From Phormidium tenue FACHB-886 (GTDB taxonomy: Bacteria > Cyanobacteriota > Cyanobacteriia > Elainellales > Elainellaceae): a stretch of DNA of 33,770 nt. Within the stretch, counting starts at the first letter, position 1. The number at the start of each line of letters is the position of its first letter. The position numbers and the translations under genes are program-made. Below are positions 7,582 through 33,770 of this stretch, piece by piece. Location: the NCBI RefSeq assembly GCF_014764505.1, contig NZ_JACXWX010000053.1:1-33770 (forward strand), given 5' to 3'. Under the pieces are notes generated by a model. The model searched no databases. It was given only the letters and a program-made list of their open reading frames with translations, and had not been told where the DNA came from.

Positions 7582-7668
7582 CAAACTTTGAATAGATATT
7601 TGAAGATCTTAACTGTGCAGTCTATCAAAATCCTTCAGAATTGTCTCACTGATGAATTCACTGCTGCC

Positions 7669-10620: not shown

Positions 10621-11001
10621 TGATTAGGTGAAACTTCGAGTTGTAACTCTGGCTGTCTAAACAAGTTTCTAGATAAAATCTAATGCGATTTTGTTGTCCT
10701 AATAAAATAGTAAGGAATTCATAGTAAGTTTTTTTACATTTATTTGGCAGGTTGAAAATTGATACAGGTGATACAGTTTTTGATTGATTGCTCCTCTTAA
10801 GATGCAGCTTAAATAGCTTAACTTGGCGTGGTTAAGACTCTAGAAAGTGCCGTTTGGCGCTAGCGCAACGTTTCGCAACTCGTCTATGCCAAGGAAAAAG
10901 TAATGAGTTTTTTTCAACTGCTAAAATTGATAGCTGCGTCAGTGCAACATCTAATCTGGATGTTCAATCTTGTATCCAAAACTATCCTTTCTAGGATTTC
11001 A

Positions 11002-11023
11002 ACTCCTGATTGCAATCAGGAGT
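11002..11023. repeat. Perfect 22-bp palindrome
   Basis: The half-site ACTCCTGATTG is followed immediately by its exact reverse complement CAATCAGGAGT, with no spacer. With equal base frequencies about 0.008 such palindromes are expected in a window this long, so it is unlikely to be chance. A loopless palindrome suits a dimeric DNA-binding protein better than a terminator, since no T-run follows. It lies 422 bp upstream of the second TRZ/ATZ gene and 382 bp after the first. Confidence 0.6.
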
Positions 11024-11154
11024 ACGTTATTAGCTGCTTTTCTTGTTGCTAACTTATCAACGCTGGACGATCGGGATTGATTGGTCAATAATGTTTTCAC
11101 TCAAGTAAGCGATCGCTTTATCGGTTTAAAGCTTAGATTTGAAGACATTCAGTA

Positions 11155-11412
11155 TCAAATTCGAGGTTTTGGAAGCATTTCGTAGGATAAGTAGGCAGGA
11201 AGCATAATCTTGTCCAAATGTTCATCTAGCAAGCTCAGTAAAATATCTTTCCAATAAGTAAAGATGACCAAAGGTATTCTAGGCTTTTCGCCAGTACCAA
11301 TTTCGCCAGTACCAATAAAGTTCAAAGTATAATTCCAGCGATCTGAAGATTCTGGAGTGAATTGCTTACTGTTTGAATATTTTAGTAGCGAGCACCACAG
11401 TATTAAACAGCA
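11155..11412 (-). other. Unrecognised open frame of 85 codons without ATG, possible gene fragment
   Basis: This minus-strand frame is open from just after a TAA (11413-11415) to a TGA at 11155-11157. It reads like real protein (SDRWNYTLNFIGTGEIGTGE, then PRIPLVIFTYWKDILLSLLD, ending MLPKPRI), with a believable alternation of polar and hydrophobic residues. There is no ATG or GTG near its start, so it could be the 3' part of a gene whose beginning was lost when the neighbouring amidohydrolase gene arrived. I do not recognise the family. It could also be a chance opening. Confidence 0.3.
11286..11315. repeat. Exact tandem 15-bp repeat
   Basis: TTTCGCCAGTACCAA occurs twice in a row (11286-11300 and 11301-11315). 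Being a multiple of three, it duplicates five residues (IGTGE) in the minus-strand open frame that covers it. It could be a slippage product in a decaying gene. Confidence 0.6.
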
Positions 11413-11444
11413 TTAATTGCTTATCTACAGCAGGAGTCGCAGCT

Positions 11445-12986
11445 ATGCCATCGTCTATCATTCGTGGAAAGCACATCATTTGCAAAACGATCGATCGATA
11501 TGAAGTGCAGATTGTTGATGACGGAGCCGTTTTCCAGCGAGATGGTCGCGTTGTTGATATTGGTTCCTATAACGACATTGCTGCTCGCTACGATGCAGAT
11601 ACAGTCATTGGGTCAAGCAGTCATGTAGTGCTACCTGGTTTTGTAAATAGCCATCATCACGTTGGGTTGACTCCTCTACAACTTGGTTCTTTGGACTTTC
11701 CCCTGGAGCAATGGTTCGCCACTCGGATGGCTTGCCGCAATGTGAATCTCTATCTGGATACGCTTTATTCGGCGTTCGAGATGATCGAGTCTGGAATTAC
11801 CACAGTACAACATATTCATGGCTGGCGGCCCGGACCTGCTTCCACTTGGTCCGGAATTGCCGAACAAATCCTCAAAGCCTATCAGGATATTGGAATGCGC
11901 GTATCCTACTGCTTTGGTTTACGCGATCAAAACCGCCTAGTCTACGAACCAGATGAAGACTTTGCCAATCGCCTTCCGGAACCGCTGGCTTCTGATATGC
12001 GAGCCATGTTCAAATCTCATACAGTTCCTGTGCAGGACTACATGGAATTTTTTGAATATTTGTGGAAAACCTGGGATCAGGGTGATGACGATCGCACTCA
12101 TATCCAATTAGCTCCCGCTAATCTCCACTGGTGTTCCGATAAAGCCTTAGAGGTCTTGCTCGAGTACTCCCAAAAGCATCAGGTTGGAATGCACATGCAC
12201 TTGCTAGAGACGGCTTACCAGAAAGAGTATGCCTATCGTCGCGCAGGCAAATCGGCAGTAAAGCATTTGCATGATATAGGATTTTTGGGAGAGCATCTCA
12301 CCCTCGGTCACGGAGTTTGGCTGAATGAAGAAGACATTGAAATGGTTGCAGCCAGCGGCACGATGATTTGCCACAATGCCAGTTCCAACCTGCGCCTGCA
12401 AAGCGGCATTGCTCCGCTCAATGAGTATGCAAAACGAGGCGTCAGGGTTGGGATGGGGTTGGATGAGGCAGGAATTAACGACGATCGCGATATGCTGCAA
12501 GAAATGCGGATGGTGCTAAAACTGCACCGCGTTCCGGGAATTGATGCGTTTGTGCCGACCGCCGCACAGGTGTTGCAAATGGCAACTGAGCACGGCGCAG
12601 CCACGACGGGATTTGCCAAGGAGGTGGGGAGTCTGGAAATCGGTAAGGCAGCGGATCTAGTGCTGATCAACTGGGATAAGTTAGCTTTCCCTTATTTAGA
12701 TAAGTTGATTCCGGTTGTAGAAGCCGTGATCCATCGTAGTAAAACGAGTGCTGTGGATGCAGTAATGGTTGGTGGCGAGGTCGTTTATCAGGACGGCAAA
12801 TTTACTCGCGTTGACAAGGATGCTGTTCTACAGGAGTTAGCTGAATCGCTGAAAGCACCCTTTACTCCAGAGGAATTGCGGATGCGAGAAATGGCAGGGG
12901 AGGTAGAACCCTATGTCAAGAAATTTTATGAGGGATGGCTTGATCATTCTAACTGCAATCCGTTCTACTGCCAGAGTCATCATTAA
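11445..12986 (+). CDS. TRZ/ATZ-type amidohydrolase, second copy
   Basis: A 513-residue amidohydrolase of the COG0402 deaminase/chlorohydrolase group. It has the metal-binding run NSHHHVGLTPLQLG, then MHMHLLETAYQKEY (His and Glu), LGHGVWLNEEDIE (His) and MGLDEAGINDDRDM (Asp). It is related to the 508-residue protein upstream but clearly diverged, so the pair probably acts on different substrates. The start at 11445 is set by AGGAG (11432-11436), eight bases before the ATG. An in-frame ATG at 11373 would add 24 unlikely residues. The TRZ/ATZ family includes 8-oxoguanine, guanine, cytosine and s-triazine hydrolases, and no residue seen here picks one. Confidence 0.87.
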   Translation: MPSSIIRGKHIICKTIDRYEVQIVDDGAVFQRDGRVVDIGSYNDIAARYDADTVIGSSSHVVLPGFVNSHHHVGLTPLQLGSLDFPLEQWFATRMACRNVNLYLDTLYSAFEMIESGITTVQHIHGWRPGPASTWSGIAEQILKAYQDIGMRVSYCFGLRDQNRLVYEPDEDFANRLPEPLASDMRAMFKSHTVPVQDYMEFFEYLWKTWDQGDDDRTHIQLAPANLHWCSDKALEVLLEYSQKHQVGMHMHLLETAYQKEYAYRRAGKSAVKHLHDIGFLGEHLTLGHGVWLNEEDIEMVAASGTMICHNASSNLRLQSGIAPLNEYAKRGVRVGMGLDEAGINDDRDMLQEMRMVLKLHRVPGIDAFVPTAAQVLQMATEHGAATTGFAKEVGSLEIGKAADLVLINWDKLAFPYLDKLIPVVEAVIHRSKTSAVDAVMVGGEVVYQDGKFTRVDKDAVLQELAESLKAPFTPEELRMREMAGEVEPYVKKFYEGWLDHSNCNPFYCQSHH

Positions 12987-13358
12987 TAGGCAGTTTGAGG
13001 AGTTAGTTTCTTATGTGATGCAATCACAGGAAACGAATCCTTTGCTAATTTGACATGAACTTGCTTTGTTATCCCAAATACAAATGGAGCGTGAAATATA
13101 TGGTTACTTCTTAATCAAGAAAGCCAAATTTCATTCTGATTCTCAAAAATTCTCCATTTCCTTAGTAGAGGTTTTGAAAAAAGTTAGTTCTACTGATGTT
13201 TTTTGTTTACCGTCAAAAGCTAAATTACTCCTGTCGATAATCTCTGATTTTCACGGCAAAAAGTTAGATCGGATGAGCAGCTAAAAATTCGGCGTTGCCT
13301 ACATTTGGTTGTAGCACTGTCTTTGTCATTGTCCATATGTATTTTGAAGAGGAACTCC
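12987..13358. promoter_or_regulatory. Leader region of the ABC transporter genes
   Basis: This 372-bp AT-rich stretch contains no convincing gene. A 72-codon frame from a TTG at 13066 looks like chance. The inverted repeat CTACA-N6-TGTAG (13299-13314) lies 44 bp upstream of the binding-protein ATG, where an operator could sit. No NtcA-type GTA-N8-TAC site was found, although one might be expected for a nitrogen gene in a cyanobacterium. Confidence 0.35.
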
Positions 13359-14426
13359 ATGATCAATCGTCTATCTAGTTTGCAAAGTGCATTCTCACGA
13401 CTAGGGCGGCGCAGATTTCTACAAATGGGATTAGCTGCTGCTGCAACGCCTGTTCTTGCTTCGACACTGAAGGGATGTGCTTCTGCTGAAAAAACCGCTG
13501 CTTCGGGTGGGTTGCGTCCAATTAAATTTTCTCACGGTTTTGGTCTTTGTAATATGCCCCTGTTTTACTCCCTAGAAGCAGGGCTGTTTGAAAAGAATGG
13601 CATTGCAGGTAGTGCAGTCATGGGGACCCTCGCAGGAGATCAGGCAACGCAACTGGCTTCCGGTCAGGTACAAATGGCAGTCGTTCCTTTCACCAATGCG
13701 ATCGCTGCCTACACGCAGGCTCCCACTTTTCAGGTTGTTGCAGGTAGCGGGGTACAGGGTTTGATTGTGGTTGCTAAACCAGAAATTCGCAGCATTAAAG
13801 ACTTAGCCGGCAAGAAAATTGCAGTAGCTCAGGCAGACACTCTGGAAGTAGTTGTGTACGACTATCTGAAGCGAGAAGGCATGAGCTACAGCGATGTAGA
13901 AATGGTTTACATTGCAGATGCCACAGAGGCAACAAATGCTTTCATTGCAGGTCAGGTTGATGCACTCAGTAGTATCGAACCTTACGCAACGAAGGCAAAG
14001 GCGGTTGTAAAAGGCAACATTCTGGGTGATGGCCGGGATCTATATGGTGACGGCTATCCAGATTGTGTACTGGCTGCCAGCACAGAGCTGATCGAGAAAG
14101 AGCCTGAAGTCGTAAAGCAGGCGATCGCCACCTTTTTTGATGCTCAGTACGATATCGAGAAAGGATTTGAACAAGCAGCAGAAAAGACGATTGGTAAATA
14201 CTATAAAACCGACATGGATAGCCTTCTTGCTGCGGCTCAGGCTCAGCCACCAGGGGTAGACATCCGCCAGCACAAAGAATTCATATTTGGTCGTGCGCAA
14301 AGTATGAAGGAAATGGGCTACATCACCAGTGATCCTAACAATGGCTTTGTAAACTTCTCGTTGCTAGAGCAGGTAATTTCTGAGAAGCCTGAGCTACTGG
14401 AGCGGGTGCGTACTAAGTCTGTCTAG
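13359..14426 (+). CDS. ABC transporter substrate-binding lipoprotein, NMT1/SsuA/TauA type, Tat-exported
   Basis: A 355-residue periplasmic binding protein of the NMT1/THI5-like family, used for nitrate, sulfonates, taurine or pyrimidine precursors. The start at 13359 follows a GAAGAGGA ribosome-binding site. Residues 17-23 (RRRFLQM) form a twin-arginine signal, and the hydrophobic segment ends in the lipobox LKGC (Cys40), so the protein should be exported folded and anchored as a lipoprotein. The body shows the family pattern GLCNMPLFYSLEAGLFEKNG and SIKDLAGKKIAVAQ. Downstream are the matching permease and ATPase genes. The neighbouring hydantoinase and deaminases suggest a heterocyclic or ureide ligand rather than nitrate or sulfonate. 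Confidence 0.9.
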   Translation: MINRLSSLQSAFSRLGRRRFLQMGLAAAATPVLASTLKGCASAEKTAASGGLRPIKFSHGFGLCNMPLFYSLEAGLFEKNGIAGSAVMGTLAGDQATQLASGQVQMAVVPFTNAIAAYTQAPTFQVVAGSGVQGLIVVAKPEIRSIKDLAGKKIAVAQADTLEVVVYDYLKREGMSYSDVEMVYIADATEATNAFIAGQVDALSSIEPYATKAKAVVKGNILGDGRDLYGDGYPDCVLAASTELIEKEPEVVKQAIATFFDAQYDIEKGFEQAAEKTIGKYYKTDMDSLLAAAQAQPPGVDIRQHKEFIFGRAQSMKEMGYITSDPNNGFVNFSLLEQVISEKPELLERVRTKSV

Positions 14427-14609
14427 GGTTGATAGGCAAAACTGAGCGCTTGTTCGAGCGTCCAACGATCGCCTGATTCACTGCCGAATTAACATCACAG
14501 CTCCTACTTGATTCGCTTCGTTCCAATATAGTCATTGAATGGAAAACGTTGCTCAATGACTTAATTTGCAGGTCAACCGTTTGTTCCAGTTTTTGGAGGT
14601 CAGAGACCG

Positions 14610-15518
14610 ATGATTAAGTCCAAAACCGACTCTTTCACAGAGGTAGAGGGTTCGCCACCCAAGAAAATTTCGAAGGTTGTATCTAAGGCTAAGTCGGCGC
14701 GATCGTCCTGGTGGAAGCAAACCCTGAATGGGGCAGGATGGTGGATTCTTTCTCTGGGGCTATTTCTGGGAATTTGGGAACTGGTTACGTTGTTTGGCTG
14801 GGTCAACACCACGATTATGCCACCGCCCCATAAGTTTCTGGCAGAGATTTTTTACCAGGATCAGTTTCTTGCTCCTCGTGTGGGAGTAGAGCGTACGGGT
14901 GGGCGCTTTGTCGCTTTGAGTGCGATCGTGGCGACCCTGCAGCGCGTTTTTTCTGGATTAAGCCTTAGCTTTATTGTCGCTCTCATTTTTGGTTGTCTGG
15001 CAGCCTATTTCAAAATCTTTGGTAAGCTGGTGCTGCCTACAATTACGCTGCTAGCTCCGATCGCTCCCATTGCCTGGATTCCTTTTGCCATTATGGCGTT
15101 TGGTGTGGGTAACGCTGCGGCTATCTTCGTCGTATTCGTCGGTCTGTTCTTTACACTGACTTTGGGTACGGTTAACTGCATCAATAATGTTGAACAGCTC
15201 TATATCAATACGGGTCGTGTTTTGGGTGCGAATCGGCTTCAGGTGATGCGACATATTGTGCTTCCAGCCATCATCCCCAATTTGTTTGTAATTTTGAGAA
15301 TGAACTTTTTTGGGGCGTGGATGGCAGTGCTAGCGGCAGAAATGGTGGGTGTGAACACAGGTTTGGGCGCTTTGATTATGGTGGCTCGGCAGATGTTCAA
15401 TACCAAACTCATGTTCTTAGGTATGGCAATTATTGGCGTTGTTGGCTATCTGCTAGATGTGCTGCTTCGTCAGGTACAACGCCGGGTTCTTTGGTGGAAA
15501 ACTGATGCCAATATCTAA
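14610..15518 (+). CDS. ABC transporter permease, SsuC/NrtB/TauC type
   Basis: A 302-residue inner-membrane protein. About 50 charged residues precede the first membrane helix (WWILSLGLFLGIWELVTLFG). The ATPase-coupling EAA loop reads NTGRVLGANRLQVMRHIVLP near residues 197-217, in the usual place for this family. The start has an excellent GGAGGT nine bases before the ATG. It follows the binding protein by 183 bp and precedes the ATPase by 72 bp, so all three subunits of one importer are encoded here. The spacer between binding protein and permease contains TCATTGA and TCAATGA, which could pair as a weak stem. Confidence 0.92.
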   Translation: MIKSKTDSFTEVEGSPPKKISKVVSKAKSARSSWWKQTLNGAGWWILSLGLFLGIWELVTLFGWVNTTIMPPPHKFLAEIFYQDQFLAPRVGVERTGGRFVALSAIVATLQRVFSGLSLSFIVALIFGCLAAYFKIFGKLVLPTITLLAPIAPIAWIPFAIMAFGVGNAAAIFVVFVGLFFTLTLGTVNCINNVEQLYINTGRVLGANRLQVMRHIVLPAIIPNLFVILRMNFFGAWMAVLAAEMVGVNTGLGALIMVARQMFNTKLMFLGMAIIGVVGYLLDVLLRQVQRRVLWWKTDANI

Positions 15519-15590
15519 GCTAATCTCTAATGTTTTTGCGATCGCTTTTCAATTACTCTTTTAATTTGCAACTTAATTGACGATAAATTT

Positions 15591-16397
15591 ATGGGCGAGA
15601 TTTCCTGCGAACATATCACTAAGGTTTGGGGCACTGACACGGGTGACGAAGTACTGGCGATTGACGATATTAACTTTACTGTCAAAGACGGTGAATTTTT
15701 GGTAATCATTGGTCCCAGCGGTTGTGGTAAAAGTACGCTGCTGCAAATGATGGCGGGGTTAGAAATGCCCACCTCTGGCGTCATGCGTCATAACGAACAG
15801 CCTATCACGGCTCCGAACCCCGATCGCTCCCTGATCTTCCAGCAGCCTTCTCTCTTTCCCTGGCTCTCTCTTATTGATAACGTTGCCTTTGGTCTAACCC
15901 TCAAGGGCATGAGTCAGAAGGAAAGCCATCGCCGTGCCGAGGTTTTCTTACAGGAAGTCGGATTACGTGCATTTGCCAACAAATATCCCAATCAGCTTTC
16001 CGGTGGAATGCAGCAGCGAGCCTGTATTGCCCGTGCCCTTTGCCTCGGCAGCGATATTCTGCTGATGGATGAACCGTTTGCCGCCCTTGATGTGCAAACC
16101 CGCTACAATATGCAAAAATTCTTACTGGATATTTGGGAAGGTTCTGGCAAAACGGTCGTGTTCGTAACTCACCATATCGATGAAGCGGTGTTTCTTGCCG
16201 ATCGGGTGATTATCCTTTCTGCTCGCCCCGGTCGGTTACTGGACTGTGTTTCGATCGATATGTCGCGCCCGCGTGATGTGGTGAGCAAGGAGTTTGAGCA
16301 GCACCGCGCGATGTTTGTGGAATATCTGCGATCTGAAGTGACAAAAGCTTTTGAAGAGCAGGAGTTAGCCGAGATGTTAGATACCCGGATGAAATAG
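15591..16397 (+). CDS. ABC transporter ATPase, SsuB/NrtD/TauB type
   Basis: A 268-residue nucleotide-binding subunit. Walker A is GPSGCGKST (41-49), the signature is LSGGMQQRACIARAL, Walker B is ILLMDEPFAALD, and the His-switch is in FVTHHIDEAV. Wording such as IFQQPSLFPWLSLIDNV is characteristic of the nitrate/sulfonate/taurine importer branch. It energises the permease encoded just upstream. No strong Shine-Dalgarno is visible before the ATG. Confidence 0.93.
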   Translation: MGEISCEHITKVWGTDTGDEVLAIDDINFTVKDGEFLVIIGPSGCGKSTLLQMMAGLEMPTSGVMRHNEQPITAPNPDRSLIFQQPSLFPWLSLIDNVAFGLTLKGMSQKESHRRAEVFLQEVGLRAFANKYPNQLSGGMQQRACIARALCLGSDILLMDEPFAALDVQTRYNMQKFLLDIWEGSGKTVVFVTHHIDEAVFLADRVIILSARPGRLLDCVSIDMSRPRDVVSKEFEQHRAMFVEYLRSEVTKAFEEQELAEMLDTRMK

Positions 16398-16481
16398 ACA
16401 TGACTGCTACAGCGTTTTCACTCTGTAACGTCCTCCATACCGCTTTTTTGTATCTGCTTAGGTGCAATTGTTTTTATTACA

Positions 16482-16964
16482 ATGTTTAAATCTCTATCTT
16501 TTGTACAGGAGTTAACTCGTCTGGTCGTTGGCAGCGATCAATCGGAAGATCAGGCAGCGGTCAATATTTGGGAATATGCAGAACCCGCTAATCCAGAGCC
16601 CGATCCGCTGAAGCGAAATATCCTACAGTGGCGGCGAATCATTACCGGGGAACGTGATCCTGTTGCCACATTTGCGGGTCAGCCTGTCGAGGTTATCGGA
16701 TTCGTTCATCGCACCGCGAATGATACACCTGAAACCTTCACGGTGGCGCGACAAATCATTCGCTGCTGCATGGCAGATGCCACGCCTTCCGGGCTGATTG
16801 TGTATTCTCCCAGAGCGTCACTCTATTCAACTGGAAGCTGGCTGCGAATCCGTGGAATATTTGGGGGGCGATCGCTTCACGGCAAACCTACGCTTGTCAT
16901 CGAGCCTGTTCATATTAAACGTATCCGCGAACCTAAAAAACGTTTCATCAACGGTGTGTTCTAA
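16482..16964 (+). CDS. Stand-alone YcgQ C-terminal domain protein (TIGR03943/DUF1980)
   Basis: A 160-residue protein matching the C-terminal half of the YcgQ/TIGR03943 family: QPVEVIGFVHRTANDTPETF, then IIRCCMADATPSGLIVYS with the conserved Cys-Cys-x-Ala-Asp-Ala, then SWLRIRGIF and KPTLVIEPVHIKRI. Normal family members have two to several N-terminal membrane helices and work with the YcgR permease. Here there is no hydrophobic segment and no ycgR neighbour. The gene lies 84 bp after the ABC ATPase and probably belongs to the same transcript, which suggests an accessory role in that uptake system. The function is unknown. The Cys pair could bind metal, but that is inference. Confidence 0.75.
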   Translation: MFKSLSFVQELTRLVVGSDQSEDQAAVNIWEYAEPANPEPDPLKRNILQWRRIITGERDPVATFAGQPVEVIGFVHRTANDTPETFTVARQIIRCCMADATPSGLIVYSPRASLYSTGSWLRIRGIFGGRSLHGKPTLVIEPVHIKRIREPKKRFINGVF

Positions 16965-16976
16965 AAGATTTAGCAG

Positions 16977-18305
16977 CTAGAGAATTGAAGCGATCCAATT
17001 GGCGACATTTAATAAACGAATGTCTTGACCACGAGCGCCCACAACTTGTATTGCTAACGGCAACCCGTTGTCTCCCGTTCCTGTCGGAATCGCTACTGCA
17101 GGCATTCCACATAGTGTCCACAGAACACAAAAAATAGGATTTCCTGTATTTTCAAGACCTGCCGGAGCCATACCTGTAGCGGGAGGAGTGAGAATCATGT
17201 CGAACTGGGTCAAAATTTCGCTGAGGCGTTGATTGTAAAAGTTGGTGGCATGGCGAGCGGCAGCGTAATCGACTGCGGAGAGCGATCGTCCTCGCTCAAT
17301 GAGCTGGCGAAATTTGGAGGAGAGCTGATTACCCACTCGTTCATAGTCATAACCGTGATTGAGTGCTAATCCAGCACACATCAGACAATTGGCATAGTCA
17401 AAGTATGCGTCAAATTCAGCAGGTAATTCGACCTCCACCACTCTAGCCCCTGCATCTTTCAGGTTCTGAGCTACCTGGAGTAACGTAGTCTGTCCTTCTG
17501 GCTCAACCAAATTCCAGAAGGGGTTCCTGACAAGGGCAATTTTAGGCAAATCGAGTAAGGGTGAAATCACCCAGTCAGAAGGGGCTAGATGCCCAGAAAC
17601 CCAACAGTCTGAGTCACGGCGATCGCCTCCTGCCAGAACAGAACCCAGCAATACCAGATCTGACACACTGTGGGCAAATACCCCAACGTGATCCAGTTCC
17701 CGACTGACACACAGTGCTCCAAATCGCGATACCAGCCCAAAACTGGGTTTATAGCCATACACACCGCAAAAGGAAGCTGGACGAATCACCGATCCCATTG
17801 TTTGTGAACCAATGGCGATCGGCACCATTCCATCGGCGACTGCTGCGGCTGAACCGCTGGAACTTGCTCCCGGTGTATGGTCAAGGTTGCGAGGGTTGCG
17901 CGTCCGGGAGGGGATGCCTGAAGCGTACTCTGTGGTAACTGTTTTTCCCAGGATGACGGCTCCCGCTGCCCGTAGTCGCTCGACCACTGCTGCATCATAG
18001 TTGAAATACTGTCCTGCATAAATTGAAACTCCCCACTGGGTTGGCATATCCGAAGTAGCGAAAATATCTTTAATTCCCACGGGAATGCCATGCAGTGAAC
18101 CCAGTAATCTTTCATGACGTTGGTGCGAATCACGATCGCGGGCTTGTTGAAGAGCATAACCTGCGTCAAGATATTCCCAGGCATTGACCTGTTCATCCCG
18201 TTCTTTAATCCGCTTCAAACACTGTTCTACCCATTCTTCTGAAGAAAGTGTTTGACTGTGAATTCTCTGTAATCCTTTTGTTGCATCGAACAGCTCGTTT
18301 TTCAT
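16977..18305 (-). CDS. Amidase signature family hydrolase (first)
   Basis: A 442-residue amidase of the GatA/AtzF group, which cleaves amide bonds with a Ser-cisSer-Lys triad. The Lys is K79 (GIPVGIKDIF). The cis-Ser lies in TPGASSSGSAAAVADG (S148 by alignment) and the nucleophile is S172 in SQTMGSVIRPASFCG. The glycine-rich loop reads GASSSGS where most relatives have GGSSGGS. All three catalytic residues are present. It is convergent with the DUF1980 gene (12-bp gap) and divergent from the PuuE-like gene (58-bp AT-rich spacer), so it may share regulation with the latter. Likely substrates are allophanate, carbamoyl or simple amide products of ring opening. Confidence 0.88.
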   Translation of the reverse strand: MKNELFDATKGLQRIHSQTLSSEEWVEQCLKRIKERDEQVNAWEYLDAGYALQQARDRDSHQRHERLLGSLHGIPVGIKDIFATSDMPTQWGVSIYAGQYFNYDAAVVERLRAAGAVILGKTVTTEYASGIPSRTRNPRNLDHTPGASSSGSAAAVADGMVPIAIGSQTMGSVIRPASFCGVYGYKPSFGLVSRFGALCVSRELDHVGVFAHSVSDLVLLGSVLAGGDRRDSDCWVSGHLAPSDWVISPLLDLPKIALVRNPFWNLVEPEGQTTLLQVAQNLKDAGARVVEVELPAEFDAYFDYANCLMCAGLALNHGYDYERVGNQLSSKFRQLIERGRSLSAVDYAAARHATNFYNQRLSEILTQFDMILTPPATGMAPAGLENTGNPIFCVLWTLCGMPAVAIPTGTGDNGLPLAIQVVGARGQDIRLLNVANWIASIL

Positions 18306-18363
18306 TGAAAAATTATTTCTGCTTTGTTCTTCATTCTATTTGTCAATTCTACATCTCATAAAA

Positions 18364-19260
18364 ATGGTACATCGCGATTTTTTAGGCTATAGCTCTACGC
18401 CTCCTAAGCCCGATTGGGCTAATGATGCTTATCTGGCCGTGTCCCTTGTAATCAATCTGGAAGAAGGGGCAGAACCTTCGATTGCCATGGGAGATGAGCG
18501 TAACGAAGCTGTCTACGAGGTGGTTGATGAAGTCATCGGATTCCCTGATCTTTGCATGGAATCTCACTATGAATATGGAACGAGAGTTGCCATTTGGAGA
18601 GTTTTAGATTTGCTTGACGTTTATGGAATTAAAGCAACCGTCAATGTTTCAGCTCGTGCGTTTGAGCTGTCTCCCTGGCTTGCGAAGGAAGTTGTTGCAA
18701 GAGGTCATGAGGTCTGTGGTCACGGCTATCGCTGGATTCCCCAATACCACATGGATGAAGCCGAGGAACGTGCGATGATTGCCAAAACGGTACAGGTCAT
18801 TGAGGCAACAGCGGGGGTGCGTCCGGTGGGATGGAAAACGCGATCGTCTTGCAGTATGAATACGCGCCGCTTATTGATAGAGCATGGTGGGTTTATCTAT
18901 GACTCTGATGCGTATAACGATGATTGTCCCTATATTGTTCAGGTAGCGGGTCACAGTCATGTCGTCTTACCTTACAGTTTCGACAGCAACGACATGCGCT
19001 TTGCAGGTTCGGAAACATTTCGCCTGGCTCGCGATTTCACCATCTATTTGATCGATAGCTTTGACTGGCTTTGGCAAGAAGGTCAGCAAATTTCGCGCAT
19101 GATGACGATCGGACTGCATCCTCGCACGATTGGGCGATCGGGACGGATTGTGGGTCTGAAAGAATTTCTCGATTATGCAGCCAATAAAGGACGGATCTGG
19201 TTCGCCCGAAGAGATGAGATTGCACAGCACTGGCGATCGCGCTTTCATATAGTAGATTGA
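18364..19260 (+). CDS. PuuE-like allantoinase / polysaccharide deacetylase family protein
   Basis: A 298-residue NodB-fold protein. Along its length it resembles the metal-independent allantoinase PuuE of Pseudomonas rather than chitin deacetylases: RDFLGYSSTPPKPDW, NLEEGAE, MESHYEYGTRVAIWR, GHEVCGHGYRW (114-124), RPVGWKTRSS, YDSDAYNDDCPY and WFARRDEIAQHW. PuuE opens the hydantoin ring of allantoin to allantoate. The start at 18364 matches the family start (MVHRDFLGY), though no clear Shine-Dalgarno precedes it. The gene sits alone on the plus strand between two minus-strand amidases. An allantoin-like or other cyclic ureide substrate is likely. A uricase and an HIU hydrolase are not in the window. 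Confidence 0.82.
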   Translation: MVHRDFLGYSSTPPKPDWANDAYLAVSLVINLEEGAEPSIAMGDERNEAVYEVVDEVIGFPDLCMESHYEYGTRVAIWRVLDLLDVYGIKATVNVSARAFELSPWLAKEVVARGHEVCGHGYRWIPQYHMDEAEERAMIAKTVQVIEATAGVRPVGWKTRSSCSMNTRRLLIEHGGFIYDSDAYNDDCPYIVQVAGHSHVVLPYSFDSNDMRFAGSETFRLARDFTIYLIDSFDWLWQEGQQISRMMTIGLHPRTIGRSGRIVGLKEFLDYAANKGRIWFARRDEIAQHWRSRFHIVD

Positions 19261-19312
19261 TACGATCTTGAGTAATTTAACATCGGTTAGTAGAATACTC
19301 TGTTGAATAATC

Positions 19313-20722
19313 CTAAGACCAGCAATGACGAAAATTTAGGGTTTCCTGTAGGAAATAAGCAAATTGTAGAAGTGCGGCTTCACCCTGCGGTTTGCCCACA
19401 AGCTGTATTCCAATGGGTAAGCCGGATTTTGTATAACCACAGGGAATCGAAAGGGCAGGCAATCCTGTGAGCGAAATGATATAGGTAATGGCGAGGTAGT
19501 CAATAATGGTTTGCAGTGGAATGCCGTTAATTTCCCGCACCTCCGTCTGGCTGACTGGAAAGGGTGGCACGCTGGCACTGGGAACGATCAGCACATCATA
19601 ATTCTCAAAAAAGCGTACGAAGTTTTGGTAGATGTGTCCTCTCTGAGCTTCTGCTTGCAGATATTGAGCAGCAGTCACACCATTGCCCTGTTCAATTTCC
19701 CAGCGAACGGTGTCTGTTAGCTGCTCGCCGTAGCGCTCTAGCAAAGGGTAATACATCTGGTACACCAGAGCAGCTCTCAGCGTTGCAAACGTCGCCTGTG
19801 CTCCAGCGCAGTCGGGATGGGCAGGTTTGACCTGGGAACACGGTCGATCGATCGCCCTCACTGCTGCCTCAAATACTTCCGTGACCTCTTGATGGATGAG
19901 CGTTACGCCCAAATCCATGCTATAACCAACTCGCGTTTGCTCCTGACCGTTTAAGGAAAAGTCGGGAATTGACCAGTTAGATTGGGCGATCGACACCGGA
20001 TCGCCTGCATCCCACCCCGCCATCACCGACAGCATCAGGGCAGCATCCTCTACGGTACGGGCTAGCACCCCATCGGTCGCCAAACATTCCCATAGAAGAG
20101 GTTTCGGCACACGGGGAATGCGTCCGATTGCAGGTCTTAGCCCTACAATGTTGCAGAAGCTGGCAGGAGTTCGCACTGAGCCACCCATATCGCCGCCGTG
20201 AGCCAGGAAACTCATTCCCGTTGCAACTACCACAGCAGACCCACCGCTGGAGTCGCCACAGGTGTAGTTGGGGTTGTAGGGATTTACCGTCGTACCAATG
20301 AGCGGATTATGAGTGCCTGTGCCAAAGCCGAATTCGGGAGTACTGGTTTTGCCGACGATAATCGCTCCTGCTGCTTTTAGCCGTGCGACGCAAAGATCGT
20401 CATCGTCTGGAATATGGTTTTCAAACAATTTAGAACCATAAGTTGTACGAATTCCAGCAGTTGCATTCAGGTCTTTGATCGCGATCGGAATTCCGTGCAG
20501 GGGACCGAGAATTTGACCTTGTTTGCGGGCTTTATCAGCGGCAATTGCCTCCTGTTCAGCCTGCTCTCGGCATAGGGTGATAAAAGCATTGAGCGAGGGA
20601 TTCAGCGAATCGATGCGATCAAAGCAGGCGAAAACTGCATCCACTGCGCTTACCATTCCATCGCGCAGTGCAGCAGCAAGTTGAGTTGCTGAGTGTTGAA
20701 ATAAAGGGACAGAGGTGACCAT
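19313..20722 (-). CDS. Amidase signature family hydrolase (second), last gene of the LacI-linked run
   Basis: A 469-residue amidase with the full triad: K83 (GIPIAIKDLN), S158 (GDSSGGSAVVVATG) and S182 (DMGGSVRTPASFCNI). I chose the ATG at 20722 because a GGAG lies nine bases upstream. A TTG at 20749 and an ATG at 20731 are also in frame. It follows the M20 gene on the same strand and probably ends the eight-gene transcript that begins at pfkB. It is convergent with the PuuE-like gene (52-bp gap). It is only distantly related to the first amidase, so the two probably act on different amides. Confidence 0.88.
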   Translation of the reverse strand: MVTSVPLFQHSATQLAAALRDGMVSAVDAVFACFDRIDSLNPSLNAFITLCREQAEQEAIAADKARKQGQILGPLHGIPIAIKDLNATAGIRTTYGSKLFENHIPDDDDLCVARLKAAGAIIVGKTSTPEFGFGTGTHNPLIGTTVNPYNPNYTCGDSSGGSAVVVATGMSFLAHGGDMGGSVRTPASFCNIVGLRPAIGRIPRVPKPLLWECLATDGVLARTVEDAALMLSVMAGWDAGDPVSIAQSNWSIPDFSLNGQEQTRVGYSMDLGVTLIHQEVTEVFEAAVRAIDRPCSQVKPAHPDCAGAQATFATLRAALVYQMYYPLLERYGEQLTDTVRWEIEQGNGVTAAQYLQAEAQRGHIYQNFVRFFENYDVLIVPSASVPPFPVSQTEVREINGIPLQTIIDYLAITYIISLTGLPALSIPCGYTKSGLPIGIQLVGKPQGEAALLQFAYFLQETLNFRHCWS

Positions 20723-20782
20723 ACAAGGCATCTCCAAGGAATGACTCAAGATTGGCTGTCCACAAGGAAATCCGATAATGAT

Positions 20783-29190: not shown

Positions 29191-30306
29191 TCAATCCTTG
29201 GGAGGAGAGTAAGTTGGAAAATCGATGTACCCTTCTTGCCCCAAGGAATACCAAACACTGGGATCAGCAGGTGGATTTAAAGACCAACCATTCGCAAACC
29301 GCTCAACCAGATCTGGATTGCTAATGACTAGTCGCCCAAAAGCGATTAAGTCAGCGTTGCCATTTTGGATGGCGGCTGAGGCGCTTTCTTGCGTGTAGCC
29401 ACTGTTAGCGATGATGGAACCCGTAAACACGTTGCGAAATTCGGCTAATGTCAATGGCTCTCCCAACTCATGAAAGCCGTTGAATCCTAACCCGTCGATT
29501 AGAGCCAGGTAGGCTAAACCATAAGCATTCAACTGCTGAGCGACATAGAAGAATGTTTCCCGAAAATCTGGAGAACCCATATCATTAAACGTACTGTTGG
29601 GAGACAGCCTCACTCCCACTCGGCTAGCAGGAAACACCGTTAAAATCGCCTCAATAATTTCTTTGAGAAAGCGATAGCGATTCTTCAGATTACCCCCATA
29701 TTGGTCTGTACGCTGATTCGTTTTGGATTGCAGAAACTGATCGATCAAGTAACCATTCGCTGCATGAATTTCCACTCCATCAAAACCAGCTTCTTTCGCT
29801 CGCTGGGCAGCCTGACGATAATCGTCTACAACTGAAGCGATCTCATGCGTTTCTAGAGCACGGGGAGTTTCATAAGGTTGTTTGCCAATTGGAGTATGGC
29901 TGTATTTTCCATTAAGTTTGATGGCAGAGGCAGAAACAGGTCGTTGACCATTTTCCTGAAAACTAGTGTGAGATGCCCGTCCAGAATGCCATAGTTGAAG
30001 AAAAAATGGCGTGCTTTTCGCATGAACCGCATTGACAACTTGTTTCCAAGCGTGCGTCTGTTCTTCTGAGTAAATTCCTGGGCTATGAAGCCAACCATTT
30101 GCCTGGTGCGAGATTGCCGTTGCTTCGGCAATAATTAACCCGACTGAAGCCCGTTGAGCGTAATACTCTGTCATCAAAGCGTTGGGTATTCGCTCTTTAC
30201 CTGCTCGACCACGAGTTAACGGAGCCATGACCACTCGATTCTTGAGGGTTAACCCTGCTAAATTAAAGGGACTCAGTAGAGTTGTCGCGAGTATTTGAGT
30301 TGTCAT
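29191..30306 (-). CDS. Old Yellow Enzyme family FMN oxidoreductase (OYE1, NemA-like)
   Basis: A 371-residue FMN-dependent ene-reductase that uses NADPH to reduce activated C=C bonds of enals, enones, maleimides or nitro compounds. Landmarks are LKNRVVMAPLTRGRA, the substrate-binding pair in GVEIHAANGYLIDQF (His-x-x-Asn plus the proton-donor Tyr), RTDQYGGNLKNRYRF and the FMN-phosphate region IANSGYT and AFGRLVISNPDLVERF. It shares about 84% of residues, without gaps, with the first 370 residues of OYE2 downstream in coordinates. It is the third gene of the minus-strand redox group, 171 bp after azoR, and has its own leader resembling that of OYE2. Confidence 0.92.
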   Translation of the reverse strand: MTTQILATTLLSPFNLAGLTLKNRVVMAPLTRGRAGKERIPNALMTEYYAQRASVGLIIAEATAISHQANGWLHSPGIYSEEQTHAWKQVVNAVHAKSTPFFLQLWHSGRASHTSFQENGQRPVSASAIKLNGKYSHTPIGKQPYETPRALETHEIASVVDDYRQAAQRAKEAGFDGVEIHAANGYLIDQFLQSKTNQRTDQYGGNLKNRYRFLKEIIEAILTVFPASRVGVRLSPNSTFNDMGSPDFRETFFYVAQQLNAYGLAYLALIDGLGFNGFHELGEPLTLAEFRNVFTGSIIANSGYTQESASAAIQNGNADLIAFGRLVISNPDLVERFANGWSLNPPADPSVWYSLGQEGYIDFPTYSPPKD

Positions 30307-30312
30307 CCATTC

Positions 30313-30354
30313 TTACCTCAAAAGATAAATGAACATGATCGCCACGCATCATTT
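30313..30354 (-). promoter_or_regulatory. Leader block shared by both OYE genes (copy 1)
   Basis: These 42 bp just upstream of OYE1 agree, without gaps, with 33126-33167 upstream of OYE2 at 33 positions. The block includes the GAGGTAA ribosome-binding region and a conserved AAATGATG plus GTGGCGATC stretch (minus strand). The duplication that gave two OYEs therefore included control sequence. Confidence 0.55.
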
Positions 30355-30477: not shown

Positions 30478-31110
30478 CTATGCAGTAGCTAACTCAATAA
30501 TTTTGGCGCGAGCGTTGGCGATCGATTTTGCCAACCCTTCACTATCAACTTGATCCTTCTCAATATGGATAAAGGTGATATCAGTAACCCCCATAAATCC
30601 GAAAATTGTTTCGATGTAGGGATCTTGGTGATTCATCTTCCCAAATCTTTCCCCAGGACCAAAACCAGTATCCCCTCGCGCTGTAATGACAAACATTTTC
30701 TTGCCTAGAACAAGCGGCTTATAGGGGTTTTCAGTATCCTCTGGTTCATAGGCGGCGGTTCTGTCCATTCGCACTATCTGGTCAATGTAAGCCTTAAACG
30801 CGCTGGGAACACTGAAGTTGTACATGGGAAGCCCAATGACATAAATATCGGCAGCTAAGAATTCGTCCACCAGTTGGTCGCTGATGCGGATTGCTTCCCA
30901 CATTTCAGGAGTTCGCTCCTCTGGAGAAATAAAGGCGGCGGCAACCCACAGTTCATCGACATGGGGAACAGGATGACGACCGACATCTCTATAGGTAACG
31001 GTATCGCCTGGGTGTGTCTGTTTCCAAGCTTCAACGAATTCTTTTGTCATGCGGCGAGACTGAGAACGCTCTCCACGTGGACTCGAATCAATGTGCAGTA
31101 GATGTGCCAT
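30478..31110 (-). CDS. azoR: FMN-dependent NADH-azoreductase
   Basis: A 210-residue flavodoxin-like quinone/azo reductase. The FMN phosphate loop is HIDSSPRGERSQSRRMTKEF (residues 6-25). The family blocks IYVIGLPMYNFSVPSAFKAY and VITARGDTGFGPGERFG are clear. AzoR-type enzymes perform two-electron reduction of quinones and azo dyes and protect against electrophile stress. It is flanked on both sides by OYE paralogues on the same strand, which makes a coherent set of flavin reductases for quinones, enones and nitro compounds. An AGGAGA lies upstream of the ATG. Confidence 0.93.
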   Translation of the reverse strand: MAHLLHIDSSPRGERSQSRRMTKEFVEAWKQTHPGDTVTYRDVGRHPVPHVDELWVAAAFISPEERTPEMWEAIRISDQLVDEFLAADIYVIGLPMYNFSVPSAFKAYIDQIVRMDRTAAYEPEDTENPYKPLVLGKKMFVITARGDTGFGPGERFGKMNHQDPYIETIFGFMGVTDITFIHIEKDQVDSEGLAKSIANARAKIIELATA

Positions 31111-31181: not shown

Positions 31182-33119
31182 TCAGTTCTGTGCGGCTTGC
31201 GCGACCGCAAAGGTATCTTCAAATAACCGATAACGGACAATTAAACTGTTTTGAACTGCAAATTCAAGGGCAAATTCACTTTCGATTACTTTTCCAGTCT
31301 TTTTGATTTGTGATGTAAATTCACCTAACACCACAGCTTTTTCTCCTTCAACCACGATCGAGCGAATTTCAAGCCGAATCGACTCATCTTGTTCTCTCAA
31401 ATCACGAATAAAATTTGCAACACCCCTCCGTCCTTTTCTGGTTCCAATCCAGGGAACAAGATTGACATCCCCTGTAATATCCCAATCCACATCCTCGCTG
31501 AAGAGAGCGGCGATCGCTTCGGGTTCTGCACCTGACTGGAGGCGATCGAAGTATTGCTTGACTACATTTCGAGTTACATCGCTGCTTGGCTGCTCACCTT
31601 GGAAGATCTGAATCCGATCGCGATCAGCACTGGTGAAATCGGGATCGACGTAGATGTATATCCGCCGAATCAATGCCCCGTCAAATTCAAACACATTGCA
31701 GAAGCGTCCCTGCGAGACAATTCCATCGGGACAGTACAAGCCACCTCGCATCACGCCCCGTTCTGTTCCTTCAACAACAACGAAGTTGCCAGAAACAATA
31801 TAATTGAATGCCTCAATATCGTGTTCAATCCTTTCCAACTGATTCATCATGATTTCTGAAAACTTGACCAGAGCATCTTTGCCATGAGCCAGACCAAATT
31901 TTGGAAAGAAGAGTTGAACATCGTCGGTGAAAAGATTAAGAACGGTGGAATCTCTGGTATTCACCTTTCTGAAATACGTATTGACTGCTTCTATGCGATC
32001 GCTGCTGTCTTGAGATTCAGAATAAGCTGGAAAATCGGTATAGCCTTCTTGAACCAAGGAATACCAGACCTTAGTGTCGGTAGGTGGATTTAAAGACCAA
32101 CCATTCGCAAACCGCTCAACCAAATCTGGATTGCTGATGATGGGTCGTCCAAAGCCAACCAAGTCAGCGTTACCAGCTTCGATAGCGGCTGAGGCCGTTT
32201 CTTGGGTATAGCCACTGTTTGCCATGATTGCACCCGTAAATGCATCGCGGAATTCGGCTAACCCCATTGGTTCTCCTAGCTCATGGAAACCGTTGAACTC
32301 CAGTCCATCGATCAGCGCCAGGTATCCCAGACTATACCTATTCAACTGTTGGGCAACATAGAGAAAAGTCTCTCGAAAATCCGGGGAACCCATGTCATTG
32401 TAAGCACTGTTGGGAGACAGCCTGACCCCCACTCGACTGGCAGGAAACACCGTCAGAATTGCCTCGATAATTTCTTTGAGAAAGCGATAGCGATTCTCCA
32501 GGCTACCTCCATACTGATCGGTGCGCTGATTGGTTTTCGATTGCAGAAACTGATCGATTAAATACCCATGACCGGCATGAATTTCTACTCCGTCAAAACC
32601 AGCTTCTTTCGCTCGCTGGGCAGCCTGACGATAATCTGCCACGATTAAAGGAATCCCGTTTGTCTCCAATGCTCGGGGCGTTTCATAGGGCTGTTTGCCA
32701 ATTGGGGTGTGGCTATAATCTCCAGTCAGCCTGAACGCAGAAGCGGAAACGGGGAGTTGCCCATTTTCTTGAAAGCTACTGTGAGACGCTCGCCCGGTGT
32801 GCCAGAGTTGAAGAAAAAATGGTGTTTCTTTCGCATGAACCGCATCGACAACTTGTTTCCAGGCTTGTGTCTGCTCCTCAGAGTAAATTCCAGGACTATT
32901 TAGCCAACCGTTCGCTTGTTTTGAGATGGTAGTCGCTTCAGAAATGATTAGCCCAACTGAAGCCCGTTGAGCGTAATACTCTGCCATCAAAGCGTTGGGT
33001 ATTCGCTCCTTTCCTGCTCGTCCACGAGTCAACGGAGCCATGACCACTCGATTCTTGAGGGGCAGCCCTGCTAAATCAAAGGGACTGAGTAGAGTTGGAG
33101 TTAATGCTTGAGTCGTCAT
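31182..33119 (-). CDS. Old Yellow Enzyme fused to two SnoaL/NTF2-like domains (OYE2)
   Basis: A 645-residue protein. Residues 1-370 are an OYE nearly identical in layout to OYE1, but with GVEIHAGHGYLIDQF, so the substrate pair is His-x-x-His instead of His-x-x-Asn. Residues about 375-505 (SDRIEAVNTYFRKVNTRDST, LFTDDVQLFFPKFGLAHGKD, GRFCNVFEFDGALIRRIYIY) form one SnoaL-like fold. Residues about 510-640 (VVKQYFDRLQSGAEPEAIAA, LFSEDVDWDITGD, IGTRKGRRGVANFIRDL) form a second. SnoaL-like domains bind small hydrophobic ligands or act as isomerases and cyclases. Typical OYEs stop near residue 370. The frame is open throughout, so this is a real fusion. Role is inferred: substrate capture or a second reaction step. 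Confidence 0.9.
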   Translation of the reverse strand: MTTQALTPTLLSPFDLAGLPLKNRVVMAPLTRGRAGKERIPNALMAEYYAQRASVGLIISEATTISKQANGWLNSPGIYSEEQTQAWKQVVDAVHAKETPFFLQLWHTGRASHSSFQENGQLPVSASAFRLTGDYSHTPIGKQPYETPRALETNGIPLIVADYRQAAQRAKEAGFDGVEIHAGHGYLIDQFLQSKTNQRTDQYGGSLENRYRFLKEIIEAILTVFPASRVGVRLSPNSAYNDMGSPDFRETFLYVAQQLNRYSLGYLALIDGLEFNGFHELGEPMGLAEFRDAFTGAIMANSGYTQETASAAIEAGNADLVGFGRPIISNPDLVERFANGWSLNPPTDTKVWYSLVQEGYTDFPAYSESQDSSDRIEAVNTYFRKVNTRDSTVLNLFTDDVQLFFPKFGLAHGKDALVKFSEIMMNQLERIEHDIEAFNYIVSGNFVVVEGTERGVMRGGLYCPDGIVSQGRFCNVFEFDGALIRRIYIYVDPDFTSADRDRIQIFQGEQPSSDVTRNVVKQYFDRLQSGAEPEAIAALFSEDVDWDITGDVNLVPWIGTRKGRRGVANFIRDLREQDESIRLEIRSIVVEGEKAVVLGEFTSQIKKTGKVIESEFALEFAVQNSLIVRYRLFEDTFAVAQAAQN

Positions 33120-33125
33120 GCGGTT

Positions 33126-33167
33126 TTACCTCAAAAAGAGAGTGAATGCGATCGCCACACATCATTT
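33126..33167 (-). promoter_or_regulatory. Leader block shared by both OYE genes (copy 2)
   Basis: The ungapped counterpart of 30313-30354. It lies just before the OYE2 ATG. The rest of the 270-bp gap up to the AraC-type fragment should hold the OYE2 promoter and that of the divergent regulator. No hexamers stand out. Confidence 0.5.
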
Positions 33168-33389: not shown

Positions 33390-33572
33390 ATGAATTGGGT
33401 TTGCAGAATGAAGTCGTGCTGCTTCGCAGATACCGCAAGGGTTGCTACCCATCCAGTTGAGATGGCTCACTTACTCATCCTGTCGAGTCAGGCTCAAGGT
33501 TGGGACAATGTTTTGGTTGAGCAATTTCAGCATCCACCTGAAGAAGAACGCAACCATTTCACTGAAACACCG
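33390..33572 (+). pseudogene. AraC-family regulator, N-terminal fragment cut by an IS6-family element
   Basis: The residues from about 25 onward (MAHLLILSSQAQGWDNVLVE, then QFQHPPEEERNHFTETP) match the N-terminal sensor region of cyanobacterial AraC-type regulators, which often begin with GWxNxxVEQFxHPPGE. The match ends at 33572, exactly where sequence resembling an IS6 terminal repeat begins, and the frame stops at 33629. The C-terminal AraC HTH is not present before the window ends. The start is uncertain (33390 or 33462). It was divergent from the OYE/azoR cluster and probably regulated it. Confidence 0.6.
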
Positions 33573-33770
33573 GTTGTGTCGCAAAAACTTATAAAGGACA
33601 ACCGAGCGATATCGTTTGCATTCCCTTAAGCAGCAATTCCAAAGATTGCTTCAATAAATCTAACTTGAGAGACAATATCCCCTTGTTCAATTTCTTTCAC
33701 TTGTCCTTTCCGAATCATGTTCATCGCTTCGATTCCGCTCAAGGTTTTTCTGGCACTGTTGAACGTCTTC
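33573..33770 (-). mobile_element. IS6-family insertion sequence, one end (continues past the window)
   Basis: The terminal sequence GGTTGTGTCGCAAAAACTTA starting at 33573 resembles the GGTTCTGTtGCAAA ends of IS6-family elements. A transposase gene reads inward, ending 53 bp from the terminus, as expected. The other end is outside the window, so the target duplication is not visible. Confidence 0.7.
33626..33770 (-). CDS. IS6-family transposase, C-terminal part (runs off the right edge)
   Basis: The visible minus-strand frame encodes 47 residues ending in TAA (33628-33626): KTFNSARKTLSGIEAMNMIR, then KGQVKEIEQGDIVSQ and RFIEAIFGIAA. The FxTFxSARxTLxGIEAMxMIRKGQ pattern is the C-terminal signature of IS6/IS240 transposases, after the catalytic Glu. 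It is a different subgroup from the remnant at 28630. Intactness cannot be judged. Confidence 0.8.
   Translation of the reverse strand, partial: KTFNSARKTLSGIEAMNMIRKGQVKEIEQGDIVSQVRFIEAIFGIAA

Follow-up and report, generated by a model that had tools for sequence, protein, structure and literature searches.

The contig of Phormidium tenue FACHB-886 studied here (33 770 nt, called the window in the following) carries close to one end a long reading frame on the minus strand that looks like an Old Yellow Enzyme (OYE) extended by two SnoaL-like domains. This raises the question of whether the frame is a genuine gene, whether such a combination occurs elsewhere, and what a flavin-dependent reductase and a pair of SnoaL-like domains might do on one chain.

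A single reading frame spans the OYE and two NTF2/SnoaL-like domains

According to the ORF listing and its translation, the gene (33119–31182, minus strand) is one open frame from ATG to stop with 645 codons, so that the unbroken 645-residue frame given in the preliminary description stands. It begins with a full-length class-I OYE that reaches to about residue 367; two NTF2/SnoaL-like domains come after it, at about residues 372–495 and 515–640. Its parts are:

32007..33119, minus strand: OYE part of the fusion, residues 1–371, with PF00724 at residues 10–342; GsOYE and NostocER1 are the best solved relatives
31995..32018, minus strand: junction with the last OYE and the first SnoaL residues and a HIP1 octamer; single-copy in its own genome
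31608..32006, minus strand: SnoaL/NTF2-like domain 1 and linker, residues about 372–504, with DUF4440 at residues 377–478; NTF2-like model
31185..31607, minus strand: SnoaL/NTF2-like domain 2, residues about 505–645, with SnoaL_2 at residues 520–630; sequence relative of 7epn

The domain order proposed earlier, an OYE and two tandem SnoaL/NTF2-like domains, was recovered by Pfam. Oxidored_FMN (PF00724) covers profile positions 2–340 of 342 (E = 3.8e-78) and is thus a complete domain, and SnoaL_2 reached 91.6 bits (cut-off 27) in two stretches (E = 5.3e-26, the best being 520–630). The NTF2, DUF4440 (best stretch 377–478) and SnoaL_4 profiles were likewise above their cut-offs, and the SnoaL polyketide cyclase profile PF07366 remained below its own (26.3 bits versus 28.4). 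A stop-free run of 274 SnoaL codons would arise by chance with a probability of about 4e-8 at that base composition, and hence the stretch beyond the OYE is not a chance extension; the remaining two frames of the minus strand contain 29 and 34 stops over the SnoaL part.

We located the junction at about 31990–32020, in agreement with the previous estimate of about 31990–32010. A DNA search of its own genome with the junction matched only the junction itself and the 3′ end of a second OYE, and no 18-mer near the junction is repeated within the window. Among codons 356–435 four in-frame starts are present (GTG 386, ATG 424, ATG 425 and TTG 428), all of them within or past the first predicted SnoaL helix (370–388), and by eye none is preceded by a clear ribosome-binding site, for which reason we judged it unlikely that translation of the SnoaL part starts on its own. 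With a single-copy junction and no good internal start found, the expressed product should be the fusion. Alternatively, two genes might have been united by an indel error or by a misjoin in the assembly: the junction is only about 1.8 kb away from the end of the window, and a 41-bp exact repeat, present in both OYE copies, is found at a distance of about 65 bp. However, the junction is single-copy, no clear ribosome-binding site marks a start codon ahead of the SnoaL part, and a misjoin at the 41-bp repeat would still yield an OYE C-terminus fused to SnoaL, because the repeat sits inside the OYE half. An artefact of this kind is therefore very improbable. A HIP1 octamer, GCGATCGC, occupies 31995–32002, exactly on the OYE–SnoaL junction; the window has 17 of these octamers, among them one (33148–33155) just upstream of the fused gene.

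The OYE half is conserved and has an unfused paralogue

OYEs find wide application as biocatalysts and act mainly on activated C=C bonds. We take an active-site Thr, a His/His or His/Asn pair and a Tyr, with the motifs known from PETNR and OYE1, as the signature of an OYE, and the fused protein carries them as MAPLTR from residue 27 and HAGHGY from residue 181 (H181-x-x-H184-G-Y186). The latter aligns with HSANGY of GsOYE and HAANGY of NostocER1. With the N-ethylmaleimide reductase model NF007899 the fused OYE scored 348.3 bits, below the cut-off of 403, and the protein was thus classed as an OYE and not as NemA. Alignment to NostocER1 and GsOYE is near full-length, with about 50% identity to NostocER1 and the OYE motifs kept, and the OYE barrel of the AlphaFold2 model has a TM-score of 0.97 when normalised by the length of NostocER1 (6uff chain E). 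In contrast to class-I OYEs of the NostocER1, GsOYE, CtOYE and NemA/PETNR type, whose chains have about 350–400 residues, the fused protein adds about 278 residues beyond the OYE homology. By its relatives, the OYE half is predicted to bind FMN and to reduce C=C bonds with NAD(P)H.

The second OYE of the window (30306–29191, minus strand) has 371 residues, the length previously reported for it, and is 84% identical to residues 1–371 of the fused protein. At the DNA level the two copies are 80.9% identical over 1149 bp (29206–30354 versus 32019–33167). From these bounds the block ends at about OYE codon 367, and behind the second OYE the SnoaL part has no counterpart. We calculated a dN/dS of 0.093 for the fused against the second OYE and of 0.11 against the copy of the cyanobacterial relative G392; the comparison with the unfused neighbor shows the signature of strong purifying selection on the fused OYE. 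As the synonymous divergence of the two window copies is near 1, a large and rough distance, and dN/dS is 0.09, the duplication is not a recent one, and constraint seems to act on either copy. The OYE tree left the four copies of the window and G392 (two each) unresolved, and by synonymous distances, again large and rough, the fused OYE is nearer to the intact copy of G392. These paralogues differ in the active-site pair, which is His181/His184 in the fused OYE (HAGHGY), His/Asn in the second OYE (HAANGY) and His/Tyr in G392 (HAGYGY); the differing position is one that we take to contact the substrate in other OYEs.

The fusion was observed once, the tandem SnoaL pair more widely

Searching 386 cyanobacterial genomes with the OYE part, we obtained matches in 105 of them at E 1e-20, and among the OYE matches listed no frame but that of the window carried the SnoaL part. 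Of the long OYE frames, the check covered those of G001:C26 (851 residues), G007 (502) and G044 (531), which contain no SnoaL match and were rejected as fusions; other OYE frames of some length are those of G001:C1 (705), G125 (503), G352 (489) and G080 (479), besides shorter ones. Two Bacteroidota OYE frames of 519 and 520 residues (G630, G582) were discarded because their extension is N-terminal, and the long SnoaL-matching frames of G229, G123, G005 and G405 because they have no OYE match; a SnoaL-matching frame of 426 residues in G952 lay outside this check. No second OYE–SnoaL fusion occurred among the matches listed in the searches of cyanobacteria, Bacteroidota and the phylum of Rhodoferax. 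Apart from the three loci of the window itself, the frames of at least 60 codons in our set of 228 loci gave 135 matches to the OYE, 107 to the pair and none to both. In the literature covered, which included few subscription papers, we found no paper on an OYE + SnoaL fusion, on OYE + NTF2-like or on ene-reductase + SnoaL, and papers on OYE domain architecture and fusion, judged by titles and abstract openings, included none on OYE–SnoaL. The earlier remark that this is not a described architecture fits these results, whose scope was the matches listed and the literature searched, with InterPro-type architecture tables outside it. An OYE with two SnoaL domains is thus a novel combination of known families, observed once in these searches.

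The SnoaL part alone matched 16 of the 386 cyanobacterial genomes, and only in the window's genome did the match extend over both domains. Within the window's own order (one family here) the SnoaL part matches 11 of 36 genomes including that of the window, which is the only one with an intact pair. Broken remnants of the pair are present in five cyanobacterial relatives, namely G386, G387, G395, G392 and G289, the last of which belongs to another family. G386 retains the beginning of domain 1, which sits downstream of an SDR gene and is preceded by a start region of its own instead of an OYE. In G387, G395, G392 and G289 we found, at the loci L137 (G392), L140 (G387), L141 and L164, C-terminal tails of 23–36 residues with 65–75% identity, directly upstream of the same epimerase-type gene, which is truncated in G387; on their other side, G387, G395 and G289 have a RidA gene. 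The kept tail may be a regulatory region or may go back to one old deletion. In G392 (L137) an azoreductase accompanies an OYE that shares 85% identity with the one of the fusion, and about 2.5 kb further on the same strand the pair tail follows.

Outside the cyanobacteria, 18 of 296 genomes of the Chryseobacterium phylum match the pair, three of them (G700, G645 and G433) collinearly in one protein, and a fourth collinear stand-alone pair was found in Chryseobacterium lathyri (L063). These double-SnoaL proteins of Chryseobacterium-type Bacteroidota (L045, L063, L177, L178) are collinear with the whole pair at 40–43% identity but are encoded by separate genes beside a TetR-like regulator, with no OYE attached; L177 and L178 have an N-terminal extension that by eye resembles a signal. 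In the Rhodoferax phylum 28 of 398 genomes match, none with a single collinear match over the pair; in Rhodoferax the two domains occur as neighboring genes in reverse order, near SDR, pirin and LysR genes. Partial matches to both domains lie in two adjacent frames of G952. On plasmids, 66 of 72 556 records match, none over 80% of the pair (neighborhoods were inspected for 7 of the 66, two without annotation). With stand-alone pairs in Bacteroidota and the domains as adjacent genes in Rhodoferax, the tandem protein is broader in distribution than the fusion, and it is found in several phyla. Taking together the frame, the domains, the OYE motifs and the independent pair, the gene is best read as an in-frame fusion of a class-I OYE with a two-domain NTF2/SnoaL-like protein that existed beforehand.

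Conserved residues and predicted folds of the SnoaL pair

Domain 1 has single-gene relatives with up to 56% identity. By hand count, PKFG and H433 are present in 11 of 11 aligned rows of this domain and D434 in 10 of 11; of the 10 domain-2 rows, 9 keep D545 and 9 the ED of FEDTF. D547 presumably takes the position of the general-base Asp of ketosteroid isomerase (KSI), according to a hand alignment with the KSI motif, and Asp is found there in 6 of 10 domain-2 rows. Domain 2 matches 7epn, deposited as a ketosteroid isomerase (phmmer E = 4.4e-18; structural match with Z 19.2 and 35% identity); no paper on 7EPN/7EPO was found in the literature searched. 7epn/7epo and other SnoaL_2 proteins differ from the fusion in that they are single-domain with no flavoenzyme fused, and the presumed KSI-type base is not conserved throughout the domain-2 group. 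The domain 1 model resembles the folds of limonene epoxide hydrolase, KSI, LinA and NTF2 at 9–19% identity. For the pair, the top Foldseek match was 3rga (lasalocid; Lsd19-type tandem epoxide hydrolase), which aligns over both NTF2-like domains, with MonBI and MonBII ranking close behind. These proteins have no OYE, and with 16–17% identity and an rmsd of about 17 Å over both domains they share with the pair only the fold and the number of domains; although Foldseek ranks them high, no tandem epoxide hydrolase was among the 50 VIA-align rows listed.

AlphaFold2 predicted the full-length protein as an OYE barrel and two NTF2-like folds (mean pLDDT 82.4, pTM 0.60), with linkers of pLDDT <50 at residues 354–369 and 493–512. 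The pair modelled alone from five sequences gave a mean pLDDT of 75 and a pTM of 0.51. Given the low linker values and the pTM of 0.60, the model does not indicate docking of the SnoaL domains on the OYE. The same values would suit a real fusion in which the pair is a structural or oligomerisation appendage and the OYE does all the chemistry. Such an arrangement resembles JsFMO, a solved flavoenzyme bearing a SnoaL-like N-terminal domain that is reported to lie away from the active site (PMC10028610); that enzyme differs in being an FAD monooxygenase of another fold, with one SnoaL-like domain at the opposite end. On the other hand, the pair occurs free-standing and has the conserved polar residues of its own counted above (PKFG and H433, ED of FEDTF), and so it presumably functions without an OYE. 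We regard a mere appendage as unlikely.

The fused gene lies in a probable reduction cluster between transposase fragments

In the gene neighborhood of the fusion we identified the following features:

30478..31110, minus strand: FMN-dependent NADH-azoreductase-like gene, next after the fused gene with a gap of 71 bp; PF02525 above cut-off, AGGAG before the start
29191..30306, minus strand: second, unfused OYE of 371 aa, third same-strand gene, gap of 171 bp; PF00724, 84% identical to the fused OYE
33447..33566, plus strand: remnant encoding the N-terminus of an AraC-family regulator and divergent to the fused gene; a 40-aa alignment to residues 6–45 of the AraC-type regulator of the G392 cluster shows 75% identity
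28630..29103, plus strand: transposase frame beside the gene run; DDE_Tnp_IS240 (PF13610, E = 8e-22), partial, profile positions 24–137 of 139

The azoreductase-like gene meets the flavodoxin-like fold profile PF02525, and the NCBIfam azoreductase models match it below their cut-offs (PRK13556, 90.1 bits versus 188). The fused gene, this gene and the second OYE probably form an operon. We found no minus-strand promoter-like site before the genes: the region has two sites, both on the plus strand, compared to 7.5 expected from shuffles. The terminator scan gave four matches versus 5.2 in shuffles, that is, fewer than expected. The homology of the AraC remnant ends after about 50 codons with no significant match further on, so the likely AraC-type regulator of the cluster is broken in the window. 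The remnant lies between the fused gene and the right end of the window, where just past the remnant the DNA (33569–33769) shares 78% identity with Gloeocapsopsis DNA that carries the annotation IS6 family transposase. We read the fused gene best as part of a rearranging, transposase-flanked reduction cluster. In G392, two truncated OYE copies (L137 10592–10846 and L138 4924–5349) were observed besides the intact one, and this cluster is an unstable, rearranging one. Further away in the window (7588–20749), dihydropyrimidinase-like, two amidohydrolase-like, NMT1-type ABC transporter and two amidase-like genes were recognized by eye, which looks like a cluster for uptake and degradation of nucleobases or amides.

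In such surroundings the fusion could be an accident that left two ordinary enzymes without functional coupling. The class of locus is unstable, as the two truncated OYE copies of G392 illustrate, remnants of the pair remain in five relatives, transposase fragments stand on either side together with the broken AraC-type gene, and the fusion is a singleton. Moreover, most close OYE relatives have no SnoaL neighbor: in only 1 of 15 close cyanobacterial OYE neighborhoods (L137, L142–L145, L226–L228, L249 and L251–L256) did we observe an azoreductase or pair match, namely in G392 (L137). An OYE and a SnoaL-pair match come together in only five of the 228 loci (L148, its duplicate L163, L153, L183 and L184), and in two Chryseobacterium genomes about 9 kb separates the pair from the nearest OYE among the matches listed. 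TetR or LysR genes and redox enzymes are neighbors of some further relatives of the domains but not of others. Against an accident speaks that genes of these partner families also occur clustered but unfused elsewhere. In G622 (Bacteroidota) an AraC regulator, an OYE, an SDR, a beta-lactamase-type hydrolase, an azoreductase-like and a domain-1 gene follow each other in one direction, a run that by homology represents the partners of the window in another phylum. In G609 and G447 an OYE gene and a SnoaL gene of the domain-2 type are close to each other on one strand, and in the cyanobacterium G414 an OYE adjoins a weakly SnoaL-like frame (25% identity). In addition, the OYE half is under purifying selection, and so, by a less powerful test, is domain 1 (dN/dS of 0.19 against the G386 fragment over 80 codons), although neither test dates from the fusion itself. 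All in all, we consider an accidental fusion rather unlikely; were it no more than that, it would have little import beyond a new domain architecture.

A possible two-step reaction

The reading that we favor, with about even confidence, is a genuine lineage-specific fusion of a class-I OYE with a pre-existing NTF2/SnoaL pair, whose halves act on the same class of substrate in two tethered steps. That the fusion is known from one genome only counts against it. The presence of these domains on one chain, observed once in our searches, hints that the parts act on the same small molecule. By a simple route, a deletion or recombination would have joined the OYE to the pair. The OYE half would then use NAD(P)H to reduce an electrophilic C=C bond (of an enone, a quinone-like compound or similar). 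The same hydrophobic substrate, or the product, would be bound by the KSI/SnoaL-like half and undergo acid–base chemistry there: a C=C bond might be isomerised into conjugation, or the step might be a tautomerisation, an opening or a cyclisation. A detoxification or conversion pathway would thereby have two of its steps on one chain, carried out by neighbors tethered through flexible linkers. It is plausible, as originally suggested, that the SnoaL domains present a substrate to the flavin or process what the flavin enzyme releases. A natural fusion of an OYE to an acid–base domain pair suggests a two-step reaction, and it gives a handle on the function of the double-SnoaL protein found in several phyla.

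A chemical precedent exists within the OYE family. OYE2 is reported to isomerise the beta,gamma-unsaturated alpha-angelica lactone by acid–base chemistry and then to reduce it, and the authors liken the isomerisation to ketosteroid isomerase (PMC5574032); a fusion that isomerises and then reduces is thus chemically sensible. One could go further and assume a self-sufficient isomerase–reductase, in which the SnoaL half brings an unactivated C=C bond into conjugation or unmasks an enone and the tethered ene-reductase then reduces compounds that would otherwise be poor substrates or none at all, a specific proposal that we put forward as speculative and quite doubtful. With regard to the neighboring azoreductase-like gene, an azoreductase with 2-methylhydroquinone resistance is reported from mhq clusters (PMC12673573), and some Bacteroidota OYEs (L266–L268) lie beside genes that by eye resemble the mhq glyoxalase and dioxygenase.
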